A stretch of DNA of 64,000 bases from positions 62,001 to 126,000 of the forward strand of contig JAIMBI010000003.1 in NCBI GenBank assembly GCA_023565505.1. Reading direction: 5' to 3'. This document shows positions 266 through 58,293 of the stretch, one piece after another. Source of the stretch: Actinomycetes bacterium. GTDB taxonomy: Bacteria; Bacillota; Sulfobacillia; Sulfobacillales; JAIMBI01. The position numbers were made by a program, and so were the translations under genes. Every line of letters begins with the position of its first letter. Positions within the stretch are counted from its first letter, which is position 1. The notes beneath the pieces were generated by a model. It was not told the DNA's origin and ran no database searches. It worked only from the letters and a program-made list of their open reading frames with translations.

Positions 266-511
266 CTAGACCCCCAGGGCGCGGCCGAGCTTCCGCTGGT
301 CGAACCCGATGATGATCTGCCGGTCGGGGCCTTCCCCGATGACGGTCGTGGGCGTACCCCGGGAGCCCATCTCGATGAGCTCGTTGAGCCAGGCCGGGTT
401 GGTGGTGATGTCGCGGTCCTCGAACGGGATTCCCCTTTGAGAAAGCCACGCTTCCTCCGCTCGGCAGGCGCTTCACCCCGGCTGGACGTAGACGACGACT
501 TTCGGCGTCAC
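266..511 (-). CDS. Glutaredoxin-like selenoprotein (UxxC), in-frame TGA
   Basis: An 81-residue glutaredoxin/NrdH-type thiol-disulfide protein. Translating from GTG at 511 gives a beta strand (KVVVYVQPG), then an in-frame TGA at 475-473 (codon 13), then S-A-C, so the redox motif reads U-S-A-C where family members have CxxC. The rest is continuous and family-typical: GIPFEDRDI, the cis-proline loop SRGTPTTV and a C-terminal GFDQRKLGRAL, ending at TAG. The start is chosen because AGAGGGGGG lies just upstream; an in-frame ATG at 532 lacks a good ribosome site. The gene follows lrgB by 82 nt on the same strand. Known of the family: Sec replacing the first Cys occurs in some bacterial glutaredoxins. 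Inferred: TGA is recoded, helped by the hairpin at 439-457. The alternative, a nonsense mutation exactly at the catalytic Cys, is less likely given the intact remainder. Confidence 0.85.
439..457 (-). promoter_or_regulatory. Candidate bacterial SECIS hairpin in the glutaredoxin mRNA
   Basis: Starting 16 nt after the TGA, GAGGAAGC pairs with GCTTTCTC: eight consecutive pairs including one G-U, closing a GUG triloop. The loop GU falls 24-25 nt after the TGA, close to its place in the E. coli fdhF SECIS. Bacterial SECIS elements lie inside the coding region just after UGA with a GU in the apical loop, as here. Binding by SelB is inferred. Confidence 0.7.
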
Positions 512-35512: not shown

Positions 35513-37219
35513 TCAGCCGGACTGCTCCGCCTCCGCCTTGACCTTGGCGGCGATGCGCTCCCGCAGTTCCTGCTTGACGATCTTCCCCCCCGGCCCCAGC
35601 GGCATCGCGTCGATGAGCTCCACCCGCTCCGGCCACTTGAACTTCGCCACGCCCCGGGCCTCGAGGAAGGCCGCGAAGTCTTCCACCGTGGGCCGGGCGC
35701 CCTCCCGGGGTACCACGAAGGCGCACGCCCGCTCCCCCAGCACGGGATCCGGCATCGCCACGATGGCGATGTCCCGCACCATGGGGTGCTGGCTCAGCAC
35801 GTCCTCGATCTCCTTGGGGAAGATGTTCTGGCCGCCGCGCAGGATCATGTCTTTCTTCCGCCCTACGACGCGGAGGTACCCGTGCTCGTCGTAGACGCCG
35901 AGGTCGCCGGTGTGCTGGTAGCCCTCCCACTTGCCGCCGTACTCGACGTCGTGGTACGTCGCCCGGCTTTCCTCGGGGGAGCCGAAGTAGCCGTGGTGGA
36001 TGTTCCAGATGAGGATCTCGCCCACTTCGCCGGGCGGCAGCCGGTTGCCCTCCGCGTCCACCACCGGCACGTCGAACCCCTCGAACGGCACGCCCGCGGC
36101 CGACAGCAGGTGCTCCTTGCTGATCCCCGGCAGGATGGGGCTCATGCAGCCGCCCACCTCCGAGGTGCCGTACACGTTGAAGCTGATGACCCCCCGGTTG
36201 TACAGCTTCTCGATGACGTCGCCCGGCATCGGGGCGCCCGAGTAGCTCACCAAGCGCAGGGTGGCGAGGTCGTAGCGCTCGAAGTGGGGGCTGGTCACCA
36301 CCCGCGTGATGAGCGCCGGGTTCCAGACCCAGATGGTGAGCCGCTCCTCCTGCGTGACCCGGCACACCATCTCCTCGTCGAACTCGAGCGGCAGGATGGT
36401 CCGCCCGCCGGTGAAGAGAGGGGTGTGGACCGCCCACAACCGGCCCGATCCCCCGGACAGCGGGCCGATGAGGATGCGGGAGTCGTAGACCGTGTGGCCG
36501 GCGCGCTGAGCGATACCCGTGCTGTGGACATGAAACCAGTCGACGGTCGTACGCCGGGAAATCTTGGGCACGCCGGTGGTGCCGGCGGTCGGCAACAGTT
36601 CGTGCACGTCGAGCGGATCCGTCTTGAGGTAGTCCAGGTCGCTCTCCTCGTAGCGGTTCCACACCGACCGGTCGAACAGCGCCTCAAGCGGCTCGTAGCC
36701 GTCCGGCACGGGCTCGCCCGGCCGCACCAGGGCCACCAGGTGCATGCCCGGCACCCGCCGCTGGCCCTCGCGGTACCACTCGGCGAAGTCCCGTCCGTGC
36801 CACTCGGGGATGATGACCGCCAGGTCCGGCTGGAGCTTCTCGATGGTCCCGAGCGTCTCCGCCCGCCCGAGGTCCACGTTGAGGCCGCAGTGCATGGCGC
36901 CGAGTTTCGACGTGGCCCAGTCGAGGTACACGCTCTCGATGGAGTTCGGGAGGTGCGACAGGACCAGGGCCCCCCGCCGGATCCCCCGGTCGAGCAGGTT
37001 GAAGATGAGGGTGTTGGTCTCGGCGAACGCGTCGGCCCAGGTCTTGCGCCGCCACCGGGACCGCTCGGCCCCCATCACCATGTCCACCAACGCCTCGCGG
37101 GTCCCGTAGAGGTGGGCGTTCTGCTTGAGCAGGTCCCACTGCACCCAGTCGTAGTGGCGGCCGCCGAGCGCCTTCGACTTCTTGATCTGGTCGAACGTAA
37201 AGAGGCTCTCCGGAAGCAT
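35513..37219 (-). CDS. Acyl-CoA synthetase (AMP-forming), probably for an alicyclic or aromatic acid
   Basis: A 568-residue ANL-family ligase. The P-loop-like A3 motif is atypical (LLPTAGTTGVPKI, about residue 195), followed by FNVYGTSEVGG (A5), HTGDLGVYDEHGYLRVVGRKKDMILRGGQNIFP (A7-A8) and the C-terminal Lys in LGPGGKIVKQELRE. The fold style resembles the 2,3-dihydroxybenzoate and cyclohexanecarboxylate ligase (AliA) branch. Start ATG 37219 with GGAGGGAGG 7 nt upstream. Downstream of badI, badH and the acyl-CoA dehydrogenase on the same strand, it most likely activates cyclohexanecarboxylate or a related acid. Confidence 0.85.
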   Translation of the reverse strand: MLPESLFTFDQIKKSKALGGRHYDWVQWDLLKQNAHLYGTREALVDMVMGAERSRWRRKTWADAFAETNTLIFNLLDRGIRRGALVLSHLPNSIESVYLDWATSKLGAMHCGLNVDLGRAETLGTIEKLQPDLAVIIPEWHGRDFAEWYREGQRRVPGMHLVALVRPGEPVPDGYEPLEALFDRSVWNRYEESDLDYLKTDPLDVHELLPTAGTTGVPKISRRTTVDWFHVHSTGIAQRAGHTVYDSRILIGPLSGGSGRLWAVHTPLFTGGRTILPLEFDEEMVCRVTQEERLTIWVWNPALITRVVTSPHFERYDLATLRLVSYSGAPMPGDVIEKLYNRGVISFNVYGTSEVGGCMSPILPGISKEHLLSAAGVPFEGFDVPVVDAEGNRLPPGEVGEILIWNIHHGYFGSPEESRATYHDVEYGGKWEGYQHTGDLGVYDEHGYLRVVGRKKDMILRGGQNIFPKEIEDVLSQHPMVRDIAIVAMPDPVLGERACAFVVPREGARPTVEDFAAFLEARGVAKFKWPERVELIDAMPLGPGGKIVKQELRERIAAKVKAEAEQSG

Positions 37220-56643: not shown

Positions 56644-56949
56644 CCAGTCCGCGTCCCCTCCATCCGTCCAGAGCCCGTCGCCCCCCCACGCCCGCCGCCT
56701 GGGCCATGCCGCCTCGCTTCGTCTCTCGTCCGAAGCAGAGCCGACAGCTGGTGTTGGGCAAAAGTCTAACATTGCCGAAACATTGCCGATAACATGGCCG
56801 AACGCTCGGATCCCCGGAATGGCCGCCGGTCGGAAGCTCTGCGGCAGGGAGGCCGGCCGTCCGCCGCGAATCCGATACATGGATGCGCCAGGTGCGCCAG
56901 ATCCCGCCGGTCGCCCGGCGCATACTAGCGGCAGTGAGGCGAGGCAACC

Positions 56950-58293
56950 ATGGCGACACGGGTAGTCATCGTAGGAGGCGACGCCGCCGGTATGAGCGCG
57001 GCCTCCCAGGCGAAGCGCCGGCGCCCGGAGCTGGAGATCGTGGCCTTCGAGCAGGGGCCGTACATCTCGTACTCGGCCTGAAGCATTCCATACTACGTCG
57101 GCAGTTTGGTCGACGACATCAATCGGCTCGTGGCGCGCACGCCGGCGGCGTTCGCGCGGCAGGGCATCGACGTCCGCGTCCACCACCGCGTGGTGGCGGT
57201 CGATCCGGCCGCCCGCCGAGTCGCGGTCCTGCCGCCGGGCGCGTCCGAGCCGGTCTCGGAACCGTACGACGAACTGGTCCTGGCCACCGGCGCGCTGCCC
57301 GTCGTCCCCCCGTTGGAGGGTCGCGACGCCGAGGGGATCTTTCCGGTCAAGACGCTTCCGGAGGCCGAGGCCATCCGGACGCTTCTCGAGGCGCGCCGGC
57401 CGCGCCGGGTCGTCGTCGTCGGGGGCGGCTACATCGGCGTCGAGATGGCGGAGAATCTCGCCCATCGAGGGCTGGAAGTCACGGTGGTGGAGATGGCTCC
57501 GACCCTTATGCCACGACTGGACCCGGACATGGGCGCCAAGGTGACCGAGGCGGTCGCGGAGCTGGGCGTGCGCGTGCTGGTCGAGCAGCCGGTCCGCCGC
57601 TTCGTGGTCCGCGACGGGGCGGTGCGGGGCGTCGAGACCGACCAGGGCGTCGTGGAGGCGGATCTGGTGTTCCTGGGCCTTGGAGTGCGCCCGAACGTCG
57701 CGCTGGCCCGGGAGGCGGGGATCCCGCTCGGGGTGAGCGATGCCGTGGTGGTGGACGAGCACATGCGGACGGCCGTCGCGGGCGTCTGGGCGGCGGGCGA
57801 CGTGGCTCAGTCGTTCCACCTCGTGAGCCGGCGGCCGACCTACGTGCCCCTGGGCACGGTGGCCAACAAGCAGGGCCGGATCGCGGGGCTCAACCTCGCG
57901 GGCATCCCGGCGACCTTCCCCGGCGTGGTCGGTACGAGCATCACCCGGGCCGGACGGTGGGAGATCGCGACCACGGGGCTGTCCACGTCCGAGGCCCGGG
58001 ACCTGGGCTACGACGTCGTCGCCTCCACCATCACGGCCGAGACCAAGCTCGGCTACTTCCCCGACGTCGGCCCCATCACGGTCAAGCTCCTCGCCGACCG
58101 GGCGAGCGGCCGGATCCTCGGCGGCCAGATCATCGGCACCCAGGGTGCCGGCAAACGCATCGACACCATTGCGACGGCCCTGTACGCGGGTCTTCGGGCG
58201 GACGACATGGTCCATCTCGACCTGGCCTACGCCCCGCCGTTCTCGGACGTGTGGGACCCGGTCCTCATCGCCGCACGGGGCTTGGTGCGGTGA
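56950..58293 (+). CDS. CoA-disulfide reductase-like flavoprotein with Sec (in-frame TGA) at the active site
   Basis: A 447-residue pyridine nucleotide-disulfide oxidoreductase when TGA is read through. ATG 56950 begins TRVVIVGGDAAGMSAASQAKRR (FAD binding) and reaches GPYISYSA, then TGA at 57079-57081 (codon 44), then SIPYYVG. In CoA-disulfide reductases and NADH oxidases this stretch is SxxxCGxPYxxGG with the catalytic Cys at about residue 43, so TGA is exactly the Cys. The rest is intact: ELVLATGALPVVPP, VVVGGGYIGVEMAENLAHRG (NADH binding), VWAAGDVA, and the C-terminal dimer domain. A gene caller would start at 57106 and lose the FAD domain. Stand-alone on the plus strand. Confidence 0.88.
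57088..57115 (+). promoter_or_regulatory. Candidate bacterial SECIS in the flavoprotein mRNA
   Basis: Two hairpins can form just after the TGA. One (57088-57109) pairs CCA-ACU-C with G-AGU-UGG with two mismatches and a GUCG loop. The other (57096-57115) pairs CGUCG with CGACG around a 10-nt loop with GU at 23-24 nt after TGA. Both place a GU in the loop at bacterial SECIS distance. They are mutually exclusive; which forms is unknown. Confidence 0.5.

Follow-up and report, generated by a model that had tools for sequence, protein, structure and literature searches.

Selenocysteine (Sec) forms of the CoA-disulfide reductase (CoADR)/NADH oxidase group of flavoenzymes have been in print since 2006, when “NADH oxidase” was listed as a selenoprotein family, with Geobacter metallireducens as its source, in the part of PMC1794560 available to us. 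In the sections at hand, PMC2398784 (2008) has one GOS sequence of the Sec form of this enzyme family, and PMC9312934 (2022) and PMC13188914 (2026) include a Sec-containing FAD-dependent oxidoreductase, with WP_011365774.1, apparently a Geobacter protein, as the example. PMC13188914 gives the motif UGxP for this oxidoreductase (CoADR, NADH oxidase; COG0446/TIGR03385). The Sec-containing NAD(P)/FAD-dependent oxidoreductase in the accessible text of PMC12013277 is of a different family, COG1252.

Here, we describe a gene of the CoADR/NADH oxidase group in a 64-kb window, the whole stretch of DNA that was analyzed. A preliminary description of this gene held that a Sec version of the family may be little described; that view calls for revision, because the publication of the Sec form since 2006 means that the kind is already known and that the window gene is a further member. 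What is added here appears to be the recurrence of Sec within an order whose Cys forms are nested among the Sec forms, a separate case in the phylum, a U-S-I/V-P motif, and the pairing with a fusion gene. Neither a USIP/USVP motif nor an order-level distribution is present in the available portions of PMC1794560, PMC2398784, PMC9312934, PMC13188914, and PMC12013277.

The frame at 56950 to 58293 (+) has a single internal stop, the TGA at 57079 to 57081, and its 447 codons are otherwise open. That TGA is codon 44, and it occupies the position of the active-site Cys in homologs of solved structure, as the preliminary description had proposed. The features of the locus, with the evidence for each in parentheses, are as follows.

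56950..58293, + strand: predicted selenoprotein gene for a 447-residue flavoenzyme of CoA-disulfide reductase/NADH oxidase type, Sec at residue 44 (open frame, profiles, alignment, AlphaFold model)
57079..57081, + strand: UGA codon 44, where homologs have their single catalytic Cys, at the N terminus of helix 43-50 (homolog alignment, model)
56962..56991, + strand: FAD-binding dinucleotide motif VVIVGGDAAG, residues 5 to 14 (Pfam PF07992, alignment)
57409..57444, + strand: NAD(P)H-binding motif VVVVGGGYIGVE, residues 154 to 165 (Pfam PF00070 from residue 153, alignment)
57955..58254, + strand: dimerization domain, residues 336 to 435, with conserved Tyr369 and Tyr427 (Pfam PF02852, alignment)
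56936..56944, + strand: possible ribosome-binding site, the purine-rich GAGGCGAGG just 5' of the ATG (read off the sequence only)
57096..57115, + strand: bacterial SECIS hairpin CGUCGGC-AGUUUG-GUCGACG, 7 bp, loop of 6 nt with G second, 21 nt downstream of the UGA (fold, conservation, published constraints)

The FAD and NADH motifs and the dimer domain had been called intact, and Pfam agrees, with undamaged matches on both sides of codon 44 (Pyr_redox_2, 207 bits; Pyr_redox, 87 bits; Pyr_redox_dim, 60 bits). The active-site motif had been given as SxxxCGxPY; the position of the active-site Cys in it stands, but the residue that follows Sec44 in the window protein is Ser, not Gly. Purifying selection was detected on both sides of codon 44, with dN/dS or pN/pS at or below 0.29 for eight gene pairs, seven of Sec genes and one of Cys genes, over 40 codons upstream and 401 to 407 codons downstream, and three close pairs had no amino acid changes at all upstream of the codon. 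We consider it very likely that the UGA at codon 44 is decoded as Sec in a reductase of the CoADR/NADH oxidase group, a prediction from sequence. Sec insertion is supported by the exchange of UGA and Cys among orthologs, a conserved SECIS, the four parts of the selenium machinery, and purifying selection flanking the codon; the exchange, the SECIS conservation, the machinery, and the fold are computed supports. If the UGA were taken as a stop, the enzyme would appear cut at residue 43 or begun at codon 53.

Other genomes with TGA at this codon, which the preliminary description suggested searching for, were found in the same order. In a set of 41 genomes (the window's own, G000, and 40 relatives), there were 14 intact orthologs at about 52% identity or more, and codon 44 is TGA in 11 of these, G000 included (the others are G001, G003, G008, G011, G021, G027, G028, G029, G031, and G037), and TGC in three (G020, G030, and G032). 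The TGA orthologs span several genera. Searching all 42 genomes of the order at E 1e-100 returned the identical 14 orthologs; two broken gene copies, one with TGA (G038) and one with Cys (G010), lie outside that cut-off. Among the best 80 of 562 confirmed named loci, codon 44 is Cys in 79 and TGA in one, L046. This locus (Bacillota MAG TL1-5.bin82) repeats G001, just as L041 (Clostridiales MAG clean1781, Cys) repeats G032, and with both repeats counted, the 138 loci in which codon 44 was read comprise 125 with Cys and 13 with TGA. In a draw of 398 genomes from the phylum, in which four candidates were scored per genome, 61 matched at E 1e-100; TGA was found in G000, in G008, and in a single genome from outside the order, G229, at the identical codon.

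The G229 gene (L203; G229:C6:45384-46700) shares the enzyme group and the TGA but stands apart from the others, in another order of the same phylum, with the motif UGLP. A tRNA-Sec is present in G229, and no hairpin in L203 conforms to the standard SECIS model. A midpoint-rooted tree was built from 61 chosen proteins; in it, one supported group unites the order's 11 Sec genes and has the three Cys genes nested within it, and L203 is placed far off, among Cys proteins. Four changes of the Sec/Cys label are required, three of them forced by well-supported branches. Most simply, the sequences would be read as a gain of Sec in the order lineage followed by reversion to Cys once or twice, with G229 having acquired Sec separately; gain followed by return is suggested because neighboring groups have Cys, and with a midpoint root we infer the directions of change. 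An order with Sec or Cys orthologs, in which the SECIS is present or absent to match, offers a natural experiment on selenium need.

SECIS-like hairpins had been claimed to follow the TGA, and the one at 57096 to 57115 proved real and conserved in all 11 Sec genes. Its energy is -10.5 kcal/mol in context and -9.4 kcal/mol alone. The codons that hold it, +6 to +11 from the UGA, read GTC GGC AGN TTG GTC GAC in 7 of the 11 Sec genes. Synonymous identity, scored over pairs sharing an amino acid with the expectation taken from codon use, is 1.00 at these codons versus 0.34 expected, the highest of 333 codon windows in the 11 Sec genes (mean excess, 0.06; standard deviation, 0.09), and the same codons again come first with 7 sequences at 53% mean amino acid identity. 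At the same place, two actinobacterial Cys control groups (n = 11 each) rank 26 and 288 of 380 and a control of eight Cys paralogs from the order ranks 182 of 423; no score was obtainable at the hairpin place in a fourth control of 11 Cys homologs from the phylum. In the first actinobacterial group, the highest-ranking window falls nearby, at +10, where the excess is 0.24, versus 0.66 in the Sec genes, and a peak of the size seen in the Sec genes is absent from the Cys control groups.

All six stem pairs are formed in 11/11 Sec genes, in none of the three Cys orthologs of the order, and in 6 of 84 Cys homologs with at least 46% identity. The bacterial SECIS model, as laid out in the available part of PMC13188914 (Fig. 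2), has a loop of 3 to 9 nt, a stem of 4 to 16 bp, a G in loop positions 1 to 2, a spacing of 16 to 37 nt, and a minimum free energy of at most -7.5. Every one of the 11 Sec genes of the order satisfies these constraints and none of its three Cys orthologs does; as a chance level, 27 of 125 Cys homologs fit them somewhere. Folding energy as proof of a SECIS was rejected, since the z values are unremarkable (-1.2 over 47 nt, -2.6 over 36 nt, and -0.17 over 69 nt) and synonymous redraws from the gene's own codons often pair (all six pairs in 46,814 of 200,000). The fold of the 47-nt piece that the preliminary description recommended does form the hairpin, but with a z of only -1.2 it is weak evidence alone. 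Mean local folding is not stronger in Sec genes (-12.7 kcal/mol) than in 84 Cys homologs (-15.1 kcal/mol). Covariation gives no support because the core stem pairs are nearly invariant (58 of 500 shuffles equal the observed score), and Rfam at gathering thresholds has no match within the window. Folding alone being weak, the case for the hairpin rests on its conservation.

Absence of Sec machinery had been named as an argument against Sec; G000 has selA (561 bits), selB (357 bits), and selD (367 bits), all above the family cut-offs, and a tRNA-Sec at C46:128569-128659 (anticodon tca, 74 bits). Both selB and selD exceed their cut-offs in all 11 TGA genomes, and all four parts were found in six (G000, G003, G008, G011, G027, and G037), although selA of G011 contains an internal TAA. 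With the cut-offs applied, selA is missing from G001 and G028, and tRNA-Sec from G001, G021, G029, and G031; these gaps may stem from the draft state of the genomes and from strict filtering. The selD gene carries one in-frame TGA in G000 and in all 37 genomes with an above-cut-off match. Of the genomes with a Cys form, G020, G032, and G010 keep all four selenium genes, and the Cys state is thus not simply loss of the trait; G030 has selA and selB, with no tRNA-Sec at 1e-9 and no selD above the cut-off.

Three other explanations of the internal TGA were weighed and rejected on conservation, TGA gene ends, and continuous Cys orthologs. The assembly is a draft of 49 contigs with 6.62% contamination, and broken copies of the gene occur in the relatives G010 and G038, circumstances that would suit a pseudogene or a sequencing or assembly error in which a Cys codon was mutated or misread to TGA. 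Such an origin is nevertheless very improbable given the identical TGA in 11/14 intact orthologs from several genera, the low dN/dS or pN/pS on either side of it, the unchanged upstream parts of the three close pairs, and the conserved hairpin. Genome-wide reassignment of UGA (for example, to Trp), or read-through by a near-cognate tRNA, has nothing found in its favor and strikes us as extremely improbable: the gene itself and many coding-like open reading frames (ORFs) of the window terminate in TGA, homologs have Cys here and not Trp, three orthologs of the order have TGC, and tRNA-Sec and SelB are present. A 395-amino-acid ORF from the TTG at 57106 does exist, so that the locus might be split into two genes, a 43-codon peptide and that second protein, with the hairpin as a coupling element. 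However, the second part would have neither the catalytic residue nor the first FAD-binding strand, in the Cys orthologs the protein is continuous, and the three Cys orthologs have no hairpin though coding continues; we give this division hardly any credence.

Assuming Sec at codon 44, the nature of the enzyme can be approached from its fold and profiles. An AlphaFold model (25 window and locus sequences, with C for Sec) has a mean pLDDT of 92.9, and its best PDB match is 6ruz (TM 0.95, rmsd 1.5). By profile, CoA-disulfide reductase is nearest, yet under its curated cut-off (TIGR03385, 424.3 bits versus 578.8, matched over positions 1 to 439 of 439), and the H2O-forming NADH oxidase family is far below its own (NF046103, 232.3 bits versus 600). 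Tyr427 is invariant and Tyr369 is conserved in at least 90% of 25 alignment rows, and both align with Tyr in 3cgb. We take CoADR to use tyrosines of the partner subunit, and Y361 and Y419 of the Staphylococcus aureus enzyme to be its active-site tyrosines. Those two residues are the ones given for S. aureus CoADR in PDB entry titles, and Tyr369 and Tyr427 are their probable equivalents. A Pfam search of the 447-residue protein found no rhodanese domain. That the selenoprotein is mainly an NADH oxidase or peroxidase, its selenol passing to selenenic acid, and not a CoA-type disulfide reductase is a possibility we regard as somewhat unlikely. Sec is suited to peroxide reduction, NADH oxidase and peroxidase structures match the model at TM 0.93 to 0.94, and the closest solved sequence, 6ruz, goes by two names, “NADH oxidase” and “NADH-dependent Coenzyme A Disulfide Reductase”; against this, CoADR is the nearer of the two profiles, neither of which reaches its cut-off, and the conserved tyrosines, in the role given above, would fit the CoADR type.

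We favor a putative reductase that uses NAD(P)H, works through one selenol, and acts on a low-molecular-weight disulfide or persulfide. SelB and tRNA-Sec would insert Sec at codon 44, directed by the hairpin 21 nt downstream, and electrons would pass from NAD(P)H through FAD to the single selenol of Sec44. Sec44 would then attack a low-molecular-weight disulfide or persulfide, for which the CoA type is the nearest precedent, forming a mixed selenenyl sulfide that would be reduced via the flavin. Sec is expected to speed the attack and to make over-oxidation reversible. Candidate substrates are CoA disulfide, CoA persulfide, oxygen, and peroxide. The neighbors in G000, a GNAT protein and an opposite-strand dihydroxy-acid dehydratase-type protein, offer no hint of the substrate.

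Elsewhere in the window, a catabolic run at 35513 to 55874 (-) encodes an AMP-binding enzyme, an acyl-CoA dehydrogenase, an enoyl-CoA hydratase, an FAA hydrolase, an MR/MLE enolase, a PdxA family protein, parts of an altronate/galactarate dehydratase, a 2-hydroxyacid dehydrogenase, and two dihydroxy-acid dehydratase-type proteins.

In eight relatives, the next same-strand gene downstream of the flavoenzyme encodes a fusion of an RluA/RluD-type pseudouridine synthase-like part with a glutaredoxin. The G011 fusion matches PF00849 (35 bits) and PF00462 (34 bits), and the Cys-form fusion of G032 matches only PF00462 (E 1e-4). The synthase motif reads HRLMAQDRG or similar; the Asp of HRLDxxTSG, which we take to be the pseudouridine synthase motif, is missing from it. 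The active site is UxxC in G011, G029, G031, and G038 and CxxC in G010, G020, G030, and G032, and the Sec/Cys state of the fusion is that of the adjacent flavoenzyme in 8/8 pairs, not all of them independent (G030 and G032 belong to a single genus, and in G010 and G038 the flavoenzyme gene is a broken copy). Six further genomes (G000, G008, G021, G027, G028, and G037) have the two genes on different contigs, both with TGA, the fusion rows of G027 and G028 additionally showing TAG; the window gene has no adjoining fusion gene. At E 1e-10, 25 of 42 genomes have a fusion match (G007 and G018 over one domain only), with TGA in 21 of 30 rows; G001 and G003 have none, and G031 has a second, stop-free copy. 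The fusion loci with UxxC or CxxC are listed here.

L246 = G000:C3:29501-30304; others, L220, L224, L225, L227, L228, L015, L244, and L245

Our literature search returned no report of the combination of pseudouridine synthase, glutaredoxin, and selenium, and “pseudouridine” has 0 occurrences in the main text of PMC13188914. A dedicated selenium relay, running from NADH through FAD and Sec44 to the Sec/Cys glutaredoxin domain of the fusion protein, is a putative arrangement that we put forward tentatively and think unlikely; its ground is that the states match although G010, G020, and G032 are complete for the four selenium genes. If it were true, the flavoenzyme and fusion sites would behave as if required to match. 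The joint Sec/Cys state makes the neighboring redox protein a testable partner.

A second selenoprotein candidate in the window is an 81-amino-acid glutaredoxin-like ORF with UxxC at 266 to 511 (-), its UGA at 473 to 475 (PF00462, 39 bits; NCBIfam Uxx_star, 42 bits, under the cut-off of 66). It is very probably the other TGA-at-Cys case that the preliminary description counted in the window. Across the order, TGA is present in 46 of 58 glutaredoxin-like matches. Matches with an in-frame TGA also occur at G026:C120:6948-7106 and G018:C146:4621-4752, and none of selA, selB, selD, and tRNA-Sec was found in G026 and G018 at the cut-offs used. Scans of the window by GC3 and by codon use found coding-like sequence crossing a TGA at 3 and 5 places, respectively, 57079 among them; the others were, by eye, gene ends or wrong frames. 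The short glutaredoxin ORF escaped both scans and came up among the 78 matches of a motif search.

Compared with known systems, the window protein shares with the published Sec-containing FAD-dependent oxidoreductase, so far as the available text describes it, the enzyme group and a Sec predicted from sequence, and the UGxP motif likewise places Sec at the catalytic Cys. It differs in that 7 of the order's 11 Sec genes have USIP or USVP and the other 4 have UGxP, and in its setting, a Bacillota-type order with nested Cys forms; WP_011365774.1 is compared by description. The CoA-persulfide/NADH persulfide reductases 8a56, 6pfz, and 3ntd share the whole-length fold (TM 0.93 to 0.96), but their chains run to about 540 to 570 residues, presumably through an extra rhodanese-type domain, and the window protein ends at 447. 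With 6ruz, whose molecule name is NADH oxidase, it shares the whole-length fold (TM 0.95), 44% identity, and the place of codon 44, where 6ruz has Cys followed by Gly and the window protein would have Sec followed by Ser.
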